Below, piece by piece: positions 6,065 through 41,772 of a stretch of DNA of 41,883 bases (within the stretch, counting starts at the first letter, position 1; each line of letters begins with the position of its first letter). Under the pieces are notes generated by a model that searched no databases, was not told the DNA's origin, and worked only from the letters and a program-made list of their open reading frames with translations. The stretch is from a virus. A program made the position numbers and the translations under genes. Location: positions 1 through 41,883 of IMG/VR virus record IMGVR_UViG_3300036715_002244; one strand, written 5' to 3'.

Positions 6065-6635
6065 TTAAATGTGACACTGCACTCTTCACCATCCCCTCTG
6101 CCTCTATAAAGTTCTTAGCCCAACCTTTTTCTGCAATATGCTTTGCTAATGCTTCTATATACACATCTTCTATTTTGCCGTCTTTGTCTTGCTTTGACCT
6201 CAAGGCGTTTTTGATTTTCTCAAAAACTACTTGAGATTGTTTATCAGGCGTTGCCATATTAATATTTGGTATAATTTTTGACATTTCTTTTGATCTTAAG
6301 TCTCTTGTCCAGCACAATTCTTCGATGTCGTCGCTTAGTTTAACTCTTTTTTTATTAAAGCCTATCTTTTCTAAGCCGTCTATAATATCCTGTTTACCGT
6401 AGCCACCTAAAATAGGTATCTTTCTCATCATCTTCAACGATGAATAGGTAATTGCTACTTCTTTATTCTCAAGAATCAGCAAATAAAATCTTGATACATA
6501 GGTGTTCAGGAATGTTTCAGCTGAATTTGTCCACGCATAATTGCTATATGGTGATGTAATTACACGAAGAGCGTTCAAAAACGAACGCTCTTCTTCTAAG
6601 CTATTTTCAAGTATTTCTTCATCGGTTTTTTTCAT
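6057..6635 (-). CDS. Hypothetical protein upstream of terminase (possible small terminase subunit)
   Basis: 192 residues, mostly helical and charged, with no recognised motif. It overlaps terL by eight bases and the ERF gene by four, so the three are translationally linked. Small terminase subunits often precede terL, but the expected N-terminal helix-turn-helix is not evident, so this role rests on position alone. Confidence 0.65.
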   Translation of the reverse strand: MKKTDEEILENSLEEERSFLNALRVITSPYSNYAWTNSAETFLNTYVSRFYLLILENKEVAITYSSLKMMRKIPILGGYGKQDIIDGLEKIGFNKKRVKLSDDIEELCWTRDLRSKEMSKIIPNINMATPDKQSQVVFEKIKNALRSKQDKDGKIEDVYIEALAKHIAEKGWAKNFIEAEGMVKSAVSHLND

Positions 6636-7492
6636 TTATTGTCTCCTTCAAATATATCATCTTCAGTAATGCTGTCTATTTGGTCTGTCAATTGCTTCAA
6701 AAATTCATAACAACCAATAGCGTGGAATGATTTCATTATCTCTTTAATCATTCCATCCGTCGGAAGGTCTGTATCTATATTTATTTTGTGATCTTTGATG
6801 TAATTAACTAACAAAGAATGGAATGAGCCAGCGTCCATCATATTCTGAATGCCGTTCCAATCACAATACTTTTCAGTTAGCGAACGAATAGCACTCATAG
6901 CTTCTTTTTTATTGAGCTGTGATATCTGCTTTTTAAGCACTTCTTTCTCAAATTTTTCTGCAGTCATTCCTGTTTTCTTCAGCAAAGTAAATATAAAACT
7001 TCTTTGCTTATCAGACATTAACTCACTGCCTGTTTGTGGTTGCGGTTGTGATGTTGGTTGTGGATTCGGTTTATAAGTGCTTGGTTGTTTTTGTGGTAGC
7101 GGCTCTGTGTTAGCGTCGCTATCTTCGTCAGTCGTGATTCCTAAGAGTGCAGAAATCGCATACCTTTTTGCGTATGTAATTGCTGCTCCACACTCTTGAG
7201 TATAGTTGATTTTTTCATCCTTACCTTGAATCGGCAAGTATGTTTCTACATCGCCTAAAACTGAATCACCAGATTTGCAATCAATAATAGAAGTGACAAC
7301 CCTAATCATCTTAGGGTTGTCTAATAAAGCAGTTGCCTTCTGAACAAGCACAAATTCATACTTGTTCAATATCTCAATTACCTCTGGTAAAAATCCTTCC
7401 AATGGCGCATACTTATATTTGTATGCTGCCTTAGTTCTTTTTACCTCTATTTTATTTATTTCTTGTTGTGCCTGTAAAAATCTATTAAACAT
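6632..7492 (-). CDS. erf: ERF-family single-strand annealing protein
   Basis: 286 residues. The ERF signature is clear: YKYAPLEGFLPEVIEIL near residue 26 and a QECGAAITYAKRYAISALLG block followed by DEDSDAN near residue 115. A Pro/Gln-rich linker (about 130-155) leads to a separate C-terminal domain, as in P22 Erf and related proteins. ERF proteins coat single strands and anneal homologous DNA, and usually work with an exonuclease; the Cas4-like nuclease across the divergent promoter is the obvious partner. Confidence 0.9.
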   Translation of the reverse strand: MFNRFLQAQQEINKIEVKRTKAAYKYKYAPLEGFLPEVIEILNKYEFVLVQKATALLDNPKMIRVVTSIIDCKSGDSVLGDVETYLPIQGKDEKINYTQECGAAITYAKRYAISALLGITTDEDSDANTEPLPQKQPSTYKPNPQPTSQPQPQTGSELMSDKQRSFIFTLLKKTGMTAEKFEKEVLKKQISQLNKKEAMSAIRSLTEKYCDWNGIQNMMDAGSFHSLLVNYIKDHKINIDTDLPTDGMIKEIMKSFHAIGCYEFLKQLTDQIDSITEDDIFEGDNK

Positions 7493-36297: not shown

Positions 36298-36402
36298 TAA
36301 AGTTGAACCTAAAGCACGGAAGCTTTTAATATATATACGTAATTTCTTCGTTTTGCTGTGTTTTGCTTCTGCTCTTTGATGCGCTCCTAAAAAGTTTAAA
36401 AA

Positions 36403-36690
36403 ACTGTCGCTCTTGGCGTTCTTGGCGCTTTTGTCGCTTTTGGCGCTCTTGCTTTTGTCGCTTTTGTCGCTTTGCTTTGGTTCTTGTCGTTCTTGACCTG
36501 GTTTAGCGGAATTGTCAGACTATTCTGACTATTCTGACTATTGCAAAGATGTCAAAGGCGTCAGAAGCGTCAAAAGATGTCAAAAGCGTCAGAAGATGTC
36601 AAAAGCAAAAGCGTCAAAGGCGTCTTGTTAAAATTTTTTAAAAGCGTCAGAAGCGTCAAGAGCAAAAAGCTGTCAAGAGCGTCAAAAGCA
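36403..36690. repeat. Inverted arrays of GCGTCAAAAG / CTTTTGTCGC units
   Basis: The right half (36541-36690) has about 12 units of (GC or AT)GTCA(A/G)AAG in one orientation. The left half (36403-36498) has the opposite polarity, CTTTTGTCGC, CTTTTGGCGC, CTTGGCG. Between them is TCAGACTATTCTGA. Transcript from the promoter at 36269 could fold into a long imperfect stem. Confidence 0.8.
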
Positions 36691-36902
36691 CTTCTTTTTG
36701 TTGATAAAAATCAAATTATCGAATGTGGGCAGATTTTTTTTTGTTGCAGAATATTTTTTTTGGGAGTAAGAATTTTTTTTGGGGTAAGGGCTAGTCGCCT
36801 TTGTGTGTAAATCTACCATTAACCCAAGTAATATCTAATTATTTATTTAAGGTCAAGGTCAAAAGCAAAGCAAAAGCAAAGCAAAAGATAAAAGGTAAAG
36901 GG

Positions 36903-36976: not shown

Positions 36977-37201
36977 AAAAGTGCTGATTTTTGCTTGTTT
37001 TAGGGGGTGCGGGAGCGAATAAAAAAGTAAAGTGCTAAAGTATATAATTGAAGATATGGCTTTGTAAGGCTGTTAAATAAGGTTAATGTGCGATATTTGG
37101 CTATAGAGAGCCATTTTAAAATTCAAAACAACGACAAAAAGGCACTCAATTTGTTAATTTAGTTTACATAAGCTTTAAAAAGTGCAATTCAGAATTATCA
37201 G

Positions 37202-37560
37202 TAAAACAACAACAAAAACAAAACAAATTAACAACAAAAACAAAAAAAATAAAAACAATAAACAAATCTAAAAACAAACAAATCTGAATAACAAAAAACA
37301 ACAAAAACAAAAACAAATCTGAATAACAAAAAACAATAAAACAAAATCTAAAACAAAAACAACAAACAAAAATAAAACATTAAATATCAAAACAACAAAA
37401 ACAACAAAAAGAATTCAAATAAAAAAAAATCTGAATAACAAATATAAAATCAAACAAAAAAAACAAAAACAATAAAACAATAAAACAATAACAAAAAAAC
37501 AAAACAAATTAACAAATTTAAAAAACAATAACAAAAACAAAAAACAACAAAAACAAACAA
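37202..37560. repeat. A/C-rich, almost G-free tract
   Basis: Only four Gs occur in 359 bases; the sequence is AACAAAAAC-type low complexity with three copies of ATCTGAATAACAAA (one slightly shorter match). Its plus-strand RNA would be unstructured and its duplex easily melted. Confidence 0.85.
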
Positions 37561-37704
37561 GGTAAAAGAACTTTATTTATTTTATTTAACTGGATAATAT
37601 ATAAAATATTTTTGAAGTATTTATATTTTTGGTTCAATAATTTGAATTCTTTAACTGTAAAAAAACAAAAAGCTTTAAGAATTTATAATAAAGTGCTGGA
37701 ATTG

Positions 37705-37742: not shown

Positions 37743-37770
37743 TTGACAAGTCGATTCACTATGATATACT
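37743..37770 (+). promoter_or_regulatory. Early rightward promoter P1
   Basis: TTGACA, 16 bases, TATACT. The -35 lies in CTTGACAAG, symmetric about its central A, and is followed by TC(A/G)ATT as in the promoters at 37870 and 39089. Confidence 0.7.
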
Positions 37771-37786
37771 ATAGGTATAGGGGGGC

Positions 37787-37862
37787 TATATAAACATATG
37801 GCTATATAACTATATGTTTATATAAGTCAAGCTTATCAATTGATAAGAAGGTCTTATCAATT
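37787..37862. other. Two leader hairpins between P1 and P2
   Basis: TATATAAACATAT and ATATGTTTATATA form a 13-bp stem; then CTTATCAATTGATAAG is a perfect 16-base palindrome, and its half CTTATCAATT recurs at 37853. They lie in the P1 transcript leader and just upstream of P2, so may act as operator or attenuator. Confidence 0.55.
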
Positions 37863-37869
37863 AAGGTAC

Positions 37870-37930
37870 TTGACAAGTCAATTAGATATGGTATACTTAA
37901 ATGTAGTAAGTCGACCATTGACAATTGAAT
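37870..37930 (+). promoter_or_regulatory. Early rightward promoter P2 with boxA-like leader motif
   Basis: TTGACA, 16 bases, TATACT (37892-37897), then about 20 bases later ATTGACAATTGAATAGGG, which resembles the boxA antitermination element of bacterial rRNA leaders. Transcript would meet the stem at 38003 before the clamp-like gene. Confidence 0.6.
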
Positions 37931-38002
37931 AGGGAGCAAAAAAAATTTAAAGAGTGTTTTTAAAAGATTATGTAAGGCTTTTACTTGCATAAAAGTTAAC
38001 AA

Positions 38003-38036
38003 GCCCGGGGCTTAACAGCCCCGGGCGTTTAGTGTT
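38003..38036 (+). terminator. Attenuator-like stem before the short clamp gene
   Basis: Perfect 10-bp stem (GCCCGGGGCT and AGCCCCGGGC) with loop TAAC, followed by a poor U-tract (GTTTAGTGTTT). It lies between promoter and gene, so it must be read through for expression. Confidence 0.65.
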
Positions 38037-38094: not shown

Positions 38095-38817
38095 ATGGTA
38101 TTAGAAAAAACAGCAGTTGATGTAAGAATTTTAAAGCCCGTTAAAAGGGCTTTAAAAAAAGTAATTAAATTCAGTGATAAAAACACTGAAAAAAACATGC
38201 ATGGAGTAAATTTTAAAACGATTAACGATGAATTACTAGTTGCAACGACCGACGGTTTTAGACTTGTAATTTATACAATAGACATTAAACAAATACCTAA
38301 TTTAGAAATGAATTTTACAATTTCTATTAACGATGCTAGAAGGTTGTTAAAAGCTACAAAAATAATGGAATCATTTCAGACTGAATCTGAATTGGTTGTT
38401 ATTACTTCAGATTCAGAAATTAGATTAGCAAAAATTGAAAAACCTTACCCAAATTATTTAAAGGTGACTGAGCAAATAACCGACGACCTTCATTTTTCTT
38501 TTATGGTTGATAGAAAAAAGCTTTTAGATACTATTATCAAGTTTAAAGATACTAATTTGATTGAAGTATCTTTAAAAGATAATGCACTATATATTGAATC
38601 AGAAAAAGTTTATATAACAGCAACGACCGTTAAAGATTTTAATATTGAAATAAGACCTTCATTTTTAATTGAAGGTTTAAAACTATTTGATGATGAATTA
38701 ATTTATTTTTCTTATAAAAAAACTAGTAAATATTCTAATCATTATTTAATAGTGATGAATAACAGTGATATGTTTACTGATTATGAATGGATCCATTATT
38801 TTACAGCTTCTAAATAG
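38095..38817 (+). CDS. Two-domain sliding-clamp homologue (lacks DnaN domain I)
   Basis: 240 residues. It aligns with the full clamp (1625-2707) from domain II onward: KNMHGVNFKT against SKMGGVNIKT, TTDGFRLVIY against ATDGFRLALY, LEMNFTIS against LDMNFTIS, KPYPNYLK against YEYPNYEK, and a matching C-terminal block (IEGLKLFDDELIYFSYK against ISGLRIFDTEDVLFTYK). Domain I is absent, and a GGAGTG site just upstream of a normal ATG indicates a real start. Two-domain subunits could build a six-domain ring as trimers, as PCNA and T4 gp45 do. It is AT-rich, unlike the next two genes. Confidence 0.85.
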   Translation: MVLEKTAVDVRILKPVKRALKKVIKFSDKNTEKNMHGVNFKTINDELLVATTDGFRLVIYTIDIKQIPNLEMNFTISINDARRLLKATKIMESFQTESELVVITSDSEIRLAKIEKPYPNYLKVTEQITDDLHFSFMVDRKKLLDTIIKFKDTNLIEVSLKDNALYIESEKVYITATTVKDFNIEIRPSFLIEGLKLFDDELIYFSYKKTSKYSNHYLIVMNNSDMFTDYEWIHYFTASK

Positions 38818-38823
38818 TTGTAA

Positions 38824-38851
38824 GCCCGGGGCTTAACCCCCGGGCGTTTTT
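38824..38851 (+). terminator. Terminator after short clamp gene
   Basis: GCCCGGGG, loop CTTAAC, CCCCGGGC, then GTTTTT. Confidence 0.88.
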
Positions 38852-38894: not shown

Positions 38895-39094
38895 TTGACA
38901 ATTGGATATCGTCATAAATATATTTAAATATTTAAATATATTTTATTATAATATAAACATATTTAAATATATTTATCAGTGATCAAAACATCGTCCAGGA
39001 GCATATAAAACTTCATATATCGAATGTGGGCGAACGTGGGTAAATTGTGGGCATTAATAGATTTTATGGATACATAAATAATGCTTTGTTGACA
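38895..39094 (+). repeat. Promoter cassette repeat, copy A
   Basis: About 200 bases repeated at 40545-40740: a TTGACAATTG element, an ATTTAAATAT-rich stretch, the block CGTCCAGGAGCATATAAAAC, three GTGGG motifs, TTAATAGATTTTATGGAT, and the -35 box of a promoter. The following gene differs between copies. Confidence 0.9.
39026..39051 (+). promoter_or_regulatory. Phased GTGGG triplet, copy A
   Basis: GTGGG starts at 39026, 39036 and 39047, spaced 10 and 11 bases, so all face one side of the helix. The last ends 38 bases before the -35 box. A single related site (ATCGAATGTGGGC) is at 36718. Confidence 0.6.
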
Positions 39095-39157
39095 AGTCAA
39101 TTCACTATGGTATACTTAAATATAGCAAGTGACCTTTGACAACTGAATAGAGAGCAA
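39089..39157 (+). promoter_or_regulatory. Promoter P3 with rRNA-like boxA leader
   Basis: TTGACA, 16 bases, TATACT (39111-39116). Near +12 comes CCTTTGACAACTGAATAG, then AGAGC, similar to boxA of Firmicute and other rRNA leaders. It precedes the hairpin-rich gene at 39216. Confidence 0.6.
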
Positions 39158-39168
39158 ATTTTAGTATC

Positions 39169-39624
39169 TTCGAGCCCTACGGGGTTCGAAAATATTAAAA
39201 AAAGGAGGTTTTAAAATGACTTTTAATTTTAGTTTTTGGAAGTATGGCGACCAGGACGGCGAGAGCCGTTTTAGGTTGCAAAGCGTCACAACCCCAAAAG
39301 GGGTTATGCATCCTGCACGGGGTATTGACCTCGTGCAAGAAGTTCTCTCTACTGGTAGGGTAGCTACCTATCTTGTAGAGAGGTTGAACCACCAGGACGG
39401 GGTTAAGATACCCGTTCAGATTAGGGGCTCCATTCCAACAAAGGGGGTGGAATTGAAGTTCCAACCTTGCAAGGGCGTCTATGCTCTTGCAAGAGCTAAC
39501 AGGATCCCTGCAAAGGGGCTGTTTCTTGCTCCTGATGAGGGGATTCTGTTGTCGGACGGAGTCATTAATGCAATGGCTCCTGTAATAGGATAAATGAAGA
39601 GCCCGGAGCTTAACCGCTCCGGGC
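39169..39624 (+). other. Transcript segment composed of serial hairpins
   Basis: Helices found by eye, in order: 39169-39190 (9 bp), 39256-39269 (5 bp, GAGA loop), 39290-39305 (6), 39314-39337 (9), 39345-39382 (8, plus an inner 5), 39395-39417 (7), 39446-39466 (7, one bulge), 39466-39493 (11), 39502-39546 (7) enclosing 39514-39533 (6), 39558-39580 (9), and the terminator 39601-39624 (9). Many include G-U pairs. They hardly overlap and cover most of the transcript. It may be a structured RNA as well as an mRNA. Confidence 0.6.
39216..39593 (+). CDS. GC-rich early protein on hairpin-tiled mRNA
   Basis: 125 residues, unrecognised. AAAAAAGGAGGTTTTAAA before the ATG is a strong site like those of neighbouring cassettes, favouring real translation. 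The protein has no acidic or hydrophobic bias, with segments such as LVQEVLSTGRVATYLVERL and YALARANRIPAKGLFLAPDEG. The gene is visibly richer in G and C than the clamp-like gene upstream, which suggests separate origin or RNA-structure constraint. The opposite strand also has a long open frame, so coding status needs proof. Confidence 0.55.
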   Translation: MTFNFSFWKYGDQDGESRFRLQSVTTPKGVMHPARGIDLVQEVLSTGRVATYLVERLNHQDGVKIPVQIRGSIPTKGVELKFQPCKGVYALARANRIPAKGLFLAPDEGILLSDGVINAMAPVIG

Positions 39625-39629
39625 GTTTT
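39601..39629 (+). terminator. Terminator
   Basis: GCCCGGAGC, loop TTAACC, GCTCCGGGC, then GTTTTT. Confidence 0.9.
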
Positions 39630-39683
39630 TGATATATTTAAGCTTTTAAAAAGTTTAAACATATTAAAAAAGGAGGAATTAAA

Positions 39684-40115
39684 ATGGCAATCGTGTTATG
39701 TGTAGAAAAAAAGCCTTTAGGATTTGCCGCTTGGGAAGAGGGCGGCGCAGAAAAAAATACAGGGTCTGTGATTATTGTCGCAGATCCTGAAGGTCGTCCA
39801 AAAAGGGCGCACTATGTCAGGACAAGAGGGCATTTAGCAAATGGCAGGCACGCTTTAGTGCCTGTTGTTAGTGGTGACGTAATCATCTTTGTAAACCGTC
39901 ACGGGGATGATTACACGATTGAAGTCTGTAAAATTGCAGATTTCACTTATGACGAACAATATGACAATTGGGACGCAAACTGTGATTTGATAGCTAAGTT
40001 CTCAGAGGGAGCTTGGGACGACGAAGCGGTCGCAAGCCGTTTCGATGCAGCAATAAAGGCTGCATGTGACAAGGCGGCAGATTATCACTGCTGCAAGCCA
40101 TATTATATTGTCTAA
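39684..40115 (+). CDS. Early acidic protein on hairpin-tiled mRNA
   Basis: 143 residues, unrecognised, with AAAGGAGGAATTAAA before the ATG. N-terminal half is beta with basic patches (RPKRAHYVRTRGHLANGRHALVP); the C-terminal half is acidic and helical (DDEAVASRFDAAIKAACDK) and ends CCKPYYIV, with four Cys in the last half. No signal or membrane segment. It looks protein-like and well translated, yet the RNA is a chain of hairpins (39726-40094). Perhaps a host-takeover or counter-defence protein, from context only. Confidence 0.72.
   Translation: MAIVLCVEKKPLGFAAWEEGGAEKNTGSVIIVADPEGRPKRAHYVRTRGHLANGRHALVPVVSGDVIIFVNRHGDDYTIEVCKIADFTYDEQYDNWDANCDLIAKFSEGAWDDEAVASRFDAAIKAACDKAADYHCCKPYYIV
39726..40094 (+). 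other. Serial hairpins inside coding sequence
   Basis: Helices: 39726-39746 (7 bp), 39764-39785 (8), 39795-39809 (5), 39831-39843 (5), 39845-39864 (7), 39879-39914 (9), 39921-39944 (8), 39996-40014 (8, AGA loop), 40022-40044 (8), 40045-40065 (7), 40074-40094 (7). Seven use one or two G-U pairs, and loops are mostly 3-8 bases. Spacers are short and arms do not overlap. Confidence 0.65.
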
Positions 40116-40126
40116 GTAGAGTTACC

Positions 40127-40152
40127 AGCCAGGGCTAACGTCCTGGCTTTTA
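40127..40152 (+). terminator. Terminator
   Basis: AGCCAGGG, loop CTAACG, TCCTGGCT (one G-U), then TTT. Confidence 0.8.
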
Positions 40153-40180: not shown

Positions 40181-40462
40181 ATGTTAGATAGAGTTAAAGA
40201 AATGGAACAAAAAATGAATAAATATGGCATTTATTGTATTACAATAGATGATTATAACAACAAGGTTTATCGTAAATATTATCTGAATTCTAATAGTGAG
40301 TTAGGAGTTAGTATTAGGAGTTTTAAAAAGAATGATCCAAAAAGATTAGACTGGGAGCATTCAAAACTTATTAGTTATTCGTCTCAAGATAAAAAATTTG
40401 TAAAAATTTTATCAAAAGATATTAATTCAAGAGAATTAAAAAAGCTGTTTGAACTACAATAA
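40181..40462 (+). CDS. Small early protein, YSxxDKKF family, copy 1
   Basis: 93 residues, Lys-rich. C-terminal KLISYSSQDKKFVKILSKD then ELKKLF matches QVIRYSQNDKKFWEYINAYS then EIKKYL of the gene at 41482, so these are paralogues. AAAGGAGTG before the ATG. Unknown function. Confidence 0.68.
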   Translation: MLDRVKEMEQKMNKYGIYCITIDDYNNKVYRKYYLNSNSELGVSIRSFKKNDPKRLDWEHSKLISYSSQDKKFVKILSKDINSRELKKLFELQ

Positions 40463-40470
40463 ACAATAAA

Positions 40471-40499
40471 AGCCAGGACTTAAACGTCCTGGCTTTTTA
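40471..40499 (+). terminator. Terminator
   Basis: AGCCAGGAC, loop TTAAAC, GTCCTGGCT, then TTTTT. Confidence 0.9.
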
Positions 40500-40544
40500 T
40501 TTTTTAAGGCATTTTTAATAGATGCTTTAAAAAATAAAAGCTCT

Positions 40545-40740
40545 TTGACAATTGCATATTATAAAAGTATTTAAATATTTAAATATATTTTATAAAAATA
40601 TAATAATATTTAAATATATTTATCAAGTTCAAAATACCGTCCAGGAGCATATAAAACTTCATATATCGAATGTGGGCGAACGTGGGTAAAATGTGGGCAT
40701 TAATAGATTTTATGGATTGATAAATAACGTTTTGTTGACA
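40545..40740 (+). repeat. Promoter cassette repeat, copy B
   Basis: Second copy of 38895-39094. It begins GCTCTTTGACAATTG, the best boxA match in the genome (start at 40540), then the ATTTAAATAT stretch, CGTCCAGGAGCATATAAAAC, three GTGGG motifs and TTGACA. Confidence 0.9.
40672..40697 (+). promoter_or_regulatory. Phased GTGGG triplet, copy B
   Basis: GTGGG at 40672, 40682 and 40693: the same 10/11 spacing and the same 38-base distance to the -35 as copy A. Confidence 0.6.
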
Positions 40741-40762
40741 AGTAATTTAAACACGCTATAAT
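40735..40762 (+). promoter_or_regulatory. Promoter P4
   Basis: TTGACA, 16 bases, TATAAT; 34 bases before the ATG at 40797. The spacer differs from copy A, but position relative to the GTGGG sites is kept. Confidence 0.75.
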
Positions 40763-40796
40763 AAAGTTATACAAAAAATAAAAGGAGGAAACAAAA

Positions 40797-41117
40797 ATGA
40801 CTACACAAGTAAAAGGGCAAAAGAAAGATGCGAGCGACTGGCTACACGAAAAAGCAGATACTTTTCGCAAAATATCTATTTTTGACCTGGACGACCTCAA
40901 CTTTCACTTTGGTGGTAAGTTCGCAGTCACGGAGATTTTTGGCTGTGGACTAATCTACAAAAGAGACGGAATGGGGCCAAGCACTGAAGACTTTTTAGAA
41001 CCATTGGACGAGGAGTGTTTTAATGCAGACGGCTCGTTTAACGACGAGCAGGTAATGAATTATCTGAGCAAGTATGCGACACTACTCAGTATAAAGAAAA
41101 TACTTTATTATATTTAA
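40797..41117 (+). CDS. Acidic early protein
   Basis: 106 residues with AAAGGAGGAAAC upstream. A Lys-rich N-terminus leads to FDLDDLNFHFGGKFAVTEIFGCGLIY and an acidic C-terminal half. Unrecognised. First gene after promoter P4. Confidence 0.68.
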   Translation: MTTQVKGQKKDASDWLHEKADTFRKISIFDLDDLNFHFGGKFAVTEIFGCGLIYKRDGMGPSTEDFLEPLDEECFNADGSFNDEQVMNYLSKYATLLSIKKILYYI

Positions 41118-41130
41118 AAATTGGATAATG

Positions 41131-41151
41131 AGCCAGGGGCTAACCCTGGCT
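41131..41151 (+). terminator. Stem-loop without U-tract
   Basis: AGCCAGGG, loop GCTAA, CCCTGGCT, followed by TAACAAAAA. It has the family shape but lacks the U-run, so may permit read-through. Confidence 0.55.
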
Positions 41152-41179
41152 TAACAAAAAACAAAAGGAGGAGTTCAAA

Positions 41180-41428
41180 ATGAAGTATATTTGGGAAGAA
41201 AAAGAAGTTACATTTAAAAACCCGACACGTTACAAGTGCGACGGGCTGAAGTATCTTTTTGAGTGGGTTGATCACGAAACATGCTTTGTGTTTTCTATTG
41301 AAGAAGAGAATGAAGAGCAAATTGTATTGTTACAAGACGGAGTATATTCCGACGAGCGCTGGCTAGAGTATCCATATGGCTGGCTTGTGGGTATTGAAAG
41401 AGCAATTATGAAAGTAAGACCGAAATAG
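41180..41428 (+). CDS. Small acidic early protein
   Basis: 82 residues, aromatic and acidic (FSIEEENEEQIVLLQDG, WLEYPYGWLVGIERAI). AAAGGAGGAG precedes the ATG. Unknown function. Confidence 0.7.
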   Translation: MKYIWEEKEVTFKNPTRYKCDGLKYLFEWVDHETCFVFSIEEENEEQIVLLQDGVYSDERWLEYPYGWLVGIERAIMKVRPK

Positions 41429-41433
41429 CTACC

Positions 41434-41462
41434 AGCCAGAGCTTGACCGCTCTGGCTTTTTA
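41434..41462 (+). terminator. Terminator
   Basis: AGCCAGAGC, loop TTGACC, GCTCTGGCT, then TTTTT; the next ribosome site starts seven bases later. Confidence 0.88.
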
Positions 41463-41481: not shown

Positions 41482-41772
41482 ATTAAAGAATTGTTACAAC
41501 AATTAGTAAACAAGATGAACGAAGGCTTTTTAGATTCGTTCTATCTTGAGCTTAATCCTGATAAAGATGTCTATTTTGCACAAATATTTGTGCACATAAA
41601 AGGGCACTTTACAAAAAAAAGCAAAGTAGTTGTAACAATAGCCACTTACACAAAAAGTGGACAGGTTATAAGGTATAGCCAGAACGATAAAAAGTTCTGG
41701 GAGTATATCAATGCTTATTCTTCTGAGATAAAAAAATATCTTAGAGGAGAGAGAAGCTGGCAATTAAAATAA
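41482..41772 (+). CDS. Small early protein, YSxxDKKF family, copy 2, unusual start
   Basis: About 96 residues if started at ATT 41482, the codon seven bases after AGGAGG, where all sister genes have ATG. The next options are TTG 41491 (16 bases from the site) and ATG 41515, both too far. Paralogue of 40181-40462 through the YS(Q/S)xDKKF block. Its stop is just before the ribosome site of the 35-247 gene on the circle. Unknown function. Confidence 0.62.
   Translation: MKELLQQLVNKMNEGFLDSFYLELNPDKDVYFAQIFVHIKGHFTKKSKVVVTIATYTKSGQVIRYSQNDKKFWEYINAYSSEIKKYLRGERSWQLK

Follow-up and report, generated by a model that had tools for sequence, protein, structure and literature searches.

The coding sequences of two adjacent small genes, here called A and B, fold into chains of short RNA hairpins far more strongly than expected by chance, and this property is gene-specific within the window (the whole 41,883-nucleotide stretch of viral DNA that was analysed). 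Selection very probably acts at the RNA level, and what it maintains in relatives of gene B is the amount of structure. Folding predicted approximately 13 hairpins at positions 39169-39624 (stems of 6-13 bp) and 10 hairpins plus a terminator at 39725-40148 (stems of 5-14 bp), close to the 12 helices, and 11 plus a terminator, that had been read by eye in the earlier note. The hairpins stand end to end and have short loops, as described there. The abundance of G-U pairs was also found again, with 23 of the 155 predicted pairs in the first stretch (15%) and 32 of 158 in the second (20%). In gene A, some 10-12 hairpins with centres about 37 nt apart form domains covering 85% of the sequence; in gene B, the centres are about 31 nt apart. 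Across the structured genes, the hairpin domains were local (23-41 nt), with centres 31-48 nt apart, and covered 81-89% of the frame. The start region was less paired than the rest of the frame in B, F, gp55 and gp65 (the last two being genes of Fusobacterium phages described below), but its pairing still exceeded that of C and D.

The minimum free energy of gene A was -169.3 kcal/mol, versus an average of -118.4 for dinucleotide shuffles (z -8.9), -122.2 for synonymous shuffles, in which synonymous codons are swapped inside the gene (z -7.8), and -117.3 for codon-order shuffles (z -8.9). For gene B, the corresponding values were -161.4 kcal/mol versus -119.1 (z -7.1), -128.3 (z -5.1) and -118.7 (z -7.7). 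The two genes thus fold 36-43% below their dinucleotide shuffles, and none of 200 shuffles reached the real energy of either. Genes C, D and E of the same cluster gave z values of about -0.7 to -1.6 in the same tests. The structure reaches beyond the coordinates first given, since gene F is also structured (synonymous-shuffle z, z_syn, -5.0 to -5.4). The control proposed at the outset, shuffles keeping the protein, the codon usage and the codon-junction dinucleotides together, left A (z -6.3), B (z -3.7) and F (z -3.4) each more stable than all 100 shuffles, and gave values within chance for C (-0.3), D (-1.3) and E (0.0). These shuffles remain 0.85-0.95 identical to the real sequence, and the effect is therefore understated.

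In a baseline taken from lambda, T7 and the first 50 kb of T4 (155 ORFs), the extremes were z -5.8 and -0.082 kcal/nt, whereas gene A had z values between -7.6 and -8.6 and folded at about -0.11 kcal/nt. Genome-wide, the mean z was -1.84. Single synonymous changes weakened the folding of gene A in 56% of cases and strengthened it in 16% (46% and 24% for gene B, respectively), with no excess of weakening in genes C and D. All structures are predictions, and several of the z values reported here come from 14-30 shuffles. Outside the cluster, another structured coding sequence was observed on the minus strand at 6632-7492 (z_syn -6.8 to -7.5).

Table 1. Features of the gene cluster and the basis on which each was assigned.
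Feature	Position	Strand	Basis
Sigma-70-type promoter with extended -10 (TTGACA-16-TG.TATACT), before gene A	39089..39116	+	consensus scan, 11/12; repeat copy
5'-leader hairpin TTCGAGCCC-TACG-GGGTTCGAA, directly 5' of the gene A Shine-Dalgarno site	39169..39190	+	fold, 9 bp
Gene A, 125 aa, coding sequence a hairpin chain	39216..39593	+	folding and shuffles
Intergenic terminator-like hairpin 3' of gene A, GCCCGGAGC-TTAACC-GCTCCGGGC GTTTTT	39601..39624	+	sequence
Gene B, 143 aa, conserved uncharacterised family, coding sequence a hairpin chain	39684..40115	+	folding, shuffles, homologues
Terminator-like hairpin 3' of gene B, AGCCAGGGC-TAAC-GTCCTGGCT TTTA	40127..40148	+	fold and sequence
Genes C (40181-40462), D (40797-41117) and E (41180-41428)	40181..41428	+	ordinary folding; internal negative controls
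Gene F, 93-96 aa, the cluster's third structured frame	41482/41491..41772	+	shuffles; start from sequence

The features of the cluster are given in Table 1. Strong Shine-Dalgarno sites precede both A and B, and B belongs to a conserved family, in agreement with the earlier description of good reading frames with strong ribosome sites. Judging from the sequence, genes A and B are plausibly expressed early in infection from sigma-70-like promoters; promoters of gene A's type also lie at 37743 and 37870. Genes C, D and E have a gene layout like that of the structured genes. Gene F could start at TTG 41491 or at an in-frame ATT (41482) better spaced from its GGAGG, which lies about 8 bases before the ATT and about 17 before the first TTG (41482-41493), so that a rare ATT start is possible. 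The contig is that of a phage, with portal, terminase, helicase and clamp genes; searches with the portal and a 431-aa protein gave it only a loose placement among phages. Its 42 kb include two distinct genes for sliding-clamp-like proteins (DNA polymerase processivity factors), at 38095-38817 and 1625-2707.

Promoter units are repeated before gene groups (37743-37946, 38980-39160 and 40640-40762), with copies of TTGACAAGTC..GTATACT and, within these units, two copies of a second element, GTCCAGGAGCATATAAAACTTCATATATCGAATGTGGGCGAACGTGGG. An exact-pattern search of IMG/VR for the repeated promoter-proximal element found no relatives, nor did a DNA search of the cluster region against phages. 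Nearly all genes are separated by members of one intergenic hairpin family, with the common stem AGCCCGG/AGCCAGG and a TTAAC, CTAAC or TTGACC loop (38003-38026, 38824-38845, 39601-39624, 40127-40148, 40468-40497, ~41130-41153 and ~41435-41458). Several copies lack a good T tract, and the one at 38003 lies in the 5' leader of a clamp gene. Upstream, about 360 nt (37200-37560) consist almost purely of A and C (GC skew -0.70 and AT skew +0.66 over 37201-37600). This tract is the opposite of structured RNA and might be a leader without structure or belong to a replication/SSB region. Directly before it, at 36390-36700, dense short GCGTC/GTCAAAAGCG repeats preceded by their complements (CGCTTTTGTCGC, GGCGTTCTTGGCGC) form an imperfect inverted repeat.

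Protein searches found no relatives of the gene A protein, so that selection on gene A is deduced from shuffles only; its single-sequence model had a pLDDT of 37.6, with no confident fold. Protein B showed 28.7-30.9% identity (E down to 8e-9) to gp65 of the Fusobacterium phages JD-Fnp1, 4, 6 and 7, which are roughly 175-180 kb in size; the annotation of JD-Fnp4 includes RNA polymerase genes of its own. Profile searches of IMG/VR and GTDB genomes extended the family to approximately 35-40 loci, these cultured phages included, with GTDB labels of Parcubacteria, Desulfurellales, Alphaproteobacteria, Clostridia, Peptococcaceae and Chloroflexota. Members share the motifs WExGGGxTNTG ... HALF ... 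KATCYHCR, with W17 E18 xGG, K130, H135 and C136 invariant, and the family had no match at a meaningful score in Pfam, NCBIfam or PHROG. The AlphaFold2 model of B had a pLDDT of 94.6; this, together with sequence conservation across diverged genomes, indicates that B is a real protein. The best fold match of the model was the AFV1 ORF157 nuclease (PDB 3ii2; Z 7.8, a range that the tool calls common for unmatched models, rmsd 3.0 over 109 aligned residues, 6% identity), and the next unrelated match had a Z of 4.0. Foldseek searches of PDB and BFVD with the same model gave nothing below E 0.001. AFV1 ORF157 has a catalytic glutamate, Glu86 (PMC4187194); the likeness of B to it is one of predicted fold, and an ORF157-like nuclease fold is a lead only. 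PADLOC found no defence match among the proteins scanned.

B-family genes were significantly more structured than neighbouring ORFs (mean z_syn -3.16 for 37 genes versus -1.19 for 111 ORFs; Mann-Whitney p = 3e-7), with the reservation that neighbours were called mechanically and some may not be genes. About a third of the family was stronger than z -4, and some members were near 0 (L025, L030, L049 and L053). A B-family protein with a long insertion (L055, 6001-6714) has a gene that ranks among the family's most structured, whereas the other ORFs examined at that locus were all ordinary.

In all four Fusobacterium phages, gp65 was structured over its full length (z_syn -5.9 to -8.9), although the homologues differ by 72-105 synonymous changes. 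As a control, the observed changes were re-dealt at random among the starting gene's other synonymous sites. Between Fnp4 and Fnp1, where 105 synonymous codons differ, the real relative folds at -261, and random re-dealing weakened folding to -205 ± 11. The four phages gave seven directed comparisons, and in none of them did any of 60 simulations reach the real value, which was 3-6 SD below the re-dealt controls. In three further pairs of relatives (27-44 synonymous differences), 0-5 of 100 controls reached it. Folding strength is therefore held by selection.

The individual pairs, in contrast, turn over. Fnp4 and Fnp1 gp65, the most diverged pair, share 98 of about 318 predicted pairs (about one third), and compensatory changes among these phages were modestly enriched (up to 13 versus 4.8 expected). 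Since pairs turn over while folding strength is kept, it is the amount of structure that is selected, not one fold. The earlier note had held that a folding energy no lower than in shuffled controls, or relatives with changed arms and no compensating partners, would refute its claim. At the level of folding energy this check was passed, as fold strength was retained in relatives despite many synonymous changes; a conserved single RNA fold was not supported. A common fold of the B family, too, found little support: helix-level covariation gave p values of 0.007-0.59, nominally significant only for H3 and H5, and permutation support was weak for the others. Hairpins do recur at particular protein columns more commonly than in shuffles (10 pairs common to at least nine sequences, versus 0), with most of the pairing coming from protein-conserved positions.

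Structured genes were not confined to the B family. A second small family (HNDRREKKELPDGR), reached through neighbours of B in loci L029 and L039, consists mostly of structured members; they are no more structured than their neighbours because these are structured too, which makes the trait one of the region and not of the family. Two small, uncharacterised protein families came to light in this way, neither with a meaningful match in the libraries of families that were searched. Independent blocks in other phages had an anatomy like that of the window genes: hairpins of 8-20 bp follow one another in L069 3266-5369 (four genes with gene-level z -16.0, -9.9, -4.4 and -6.5, each from 14 shuffles) and in L068 710-2997. 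Compared with 40 dinucleotide shuffles, four block examples had energies 44-80% lower (z -10.4 to -12.7). In JD-Fnp4, gp55, gp64 and gp120 lay in the same range. The most extreme frames, both encoding unknown proteins, were L069 3266-3709 (z about -16; 80% below) and L068 710-2587 (z about -15; 61% below). Overall, structured genes recur in phages and in contigs whose assignments include Clostridia, Peptococcaceae and Alphaproteobacteria, among others.

A need for structure over the whole frame, independent of position, is best fitted by shielding of the message from ribonucleases or RNA-targeting defence, a benefit that we infer with somewhat less than even confidence. A, B and F would be ordinary translated phage genes whose synonymous codons are selected for a hairpin-rich transcript. 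During synthesis, short local hairpins would form close together along this transcript; they may shift and be replaced over time as long as overall stability is maintained, and the turnover of pairs fits such selection. The resulting message would be nearly without long single-stranded stretches, its start site accessible, with the 5'-leader hairpin at one end and the terminator hairpin at the other. It would be a poor substrate for single-strand-specific endoribonucleases, whether of the RNase E/Y/J type or toxin RNases of abortive infection, and a poor target for guide-RNA-directed RNA targeting. Ribosomes, with their helicase activity, could still read it, and the mRNA for a small accessory protein, probably an early one, would thus persist in a cell hostile to it. 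A more tentative extension is that a class of dsDNA-phage accessory genes, from several unrelated protein families and host phyla, has a second, non-coding role in its codons, the mRNA being armoured as a hairpin chain against ribonucleases of the host or of its defences and against RNA-targeting CRISPR; structured frames would then mark counter-defence or first-response genes. If protection is the benefit, phages would possess a so far unrecognised answer, at the level of mRNA, to immunity based on ribonucleases, and a search for the signature could single out counter-defence candidates among the many phage genes whose function is unknown.

The main rival, possible though rather unlikely, is that the hairpin chain tunes translation, by slowing or spacing elongating ribosomes or by coupling access to the start site to translation; a low or even rate of synthesis would be set, with mRNA stability as a side effect. 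mRNA structure within reading frames generally lowers translation efficiency, and the hairpin spacing of about 31-48 nt is near the ribosome footprint. The start regions of A, gp55, gp64 and gp65 were also more paired than those of C and D, so that restrained translation could be an option as well. Against such tuning stand the strong Shine-Dalgarno sites before A and B, the evenness of the structure over the whole frame, with no ramp or defined pause site, and the turnover of pairs, which leaves no fixed pause positions. Were translation control the cause, these genes would be a strong natural test case for how ribosomes tolerate structure.

Less likely than translation tuning are two other explanations. 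In the first, which we regard as unlikely, the structured transcript is itself functional and the reading frame secondary, for example as a decoy that sequesters RNase III, a dsRNA sensor or an RNA-binding protein of the host. The extreme structure, the strong promoter and terminator around gene A and the depth of folding in the other blocks would suit such a role; however, B is a conserved, confidently folded protein family, and neither a conserved RNA fold nor more than weak pair-level covariation was found. Nor did Rfam offer a match: no covariance model reached its gathering score anywhere in the window, and no known family was found in the structured genes of eight related loci, where the one hit, a group I intron in L071, lay away from them. 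The earlier note had mentioned the large phage RNAs GOLLD and ROOL without matching the genes to them, and no link to either was found here. Weak MicC and mir-2574 hits near 40456-40565 were rejected, being far below gathering scores and on an AT-rich palindrome.

The second, which seems quite improbable, is a cause at the DNA level: inverted repeats would arise when replication corrects quasi-palindromes, or from selection for hairpins in the DNA, with RNA structure as a by-product. Watson-Crick pairs are indeed the majority in the stems, and antisense folding was also below shuffles for gene A (z -6.2) and Fnp4 gp55 (z -7.8), but for gene B it was only -1.8. Across the strong B-family cases, sense folding was stronger than antisense (mean z -5.84 versus -4.00; p = 0.007). 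With an equal penalty on G-U and A-C mismatches in the stem search, which makes the counts symmetric, the GU:AC ratio over 28 strongly structured genes was 83:45, versus 36:31 in synonymous shuffles (p = 0.008), and 12:1 in gene B; this excess is significant, if not large in size. These two asymmetries identify the sense transcript as the selected molecule, as the earlier note had argued from its G-U pairs, and structured and unstructured genes adjoin, as is not expected of such a cause. Finally, an origin of the structure purely in the protein sequence, the codon usage or the base composition, with no selection on structure itself, is very improbable and contradicted by the controls: A and B are G+C-rich (0.49 and 0.45, versus about 0.36 for the genome) and several recurring B-family hairpins lie on conserved first and second codon positions, but the signal disappears both in the junction-preserving shuffles and upon re-dealing of synonymous changes, and B-family GC3 is hardly above that of neighbours (mean +0.03, higher in 19 of 37).

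Discussion of selected structure in coding sequences has so far centred on RNA viruses; here, it sits in particular genes of DNA phages and is held by selection in cultured Fusobacterium phages. In the literature searched, which was mainly open-access, we found no account of such phage genes, only GORS and a catalogue of viral mRNA structures. GOLLD and ROOL, large structured RNAs from phage genomes, are noncoding and have a conserved architecture, unlike the translated genes described here. The catalogue lists conserved local structures in viral and phage mRNAs, derived from orthologous groups (PMC6563262). It resembles our observations in placing RNA structure within phage coding sequences, but it seeks local folds conserved in an alignment, whereas here the fold is fluid and its quantity is conserved; methods based on conserved folds would therefore tend to miss such genes. 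The closest parallel is GORS, in which the folding energy of coding RNA is likewise well below sequence-order controls and the effect is spread along the whole stretch. GORS, however, spans the whole genome of positive-strand RNA viruses, whereas the trait described here is confined to single genes, with C, D and E ordinary, and is found in the mRNA of dsDNA phages. It also differs in the large energy difference, already given for A and B and reaching 80% elsewhere, and in its short hairpins placed end to end. The best reading of these genes, with a hairpin every 30-45 nt, is thus that of gene-restricted, GORS-like 'armoured' mRNAs built from short end-to-end hairpins.
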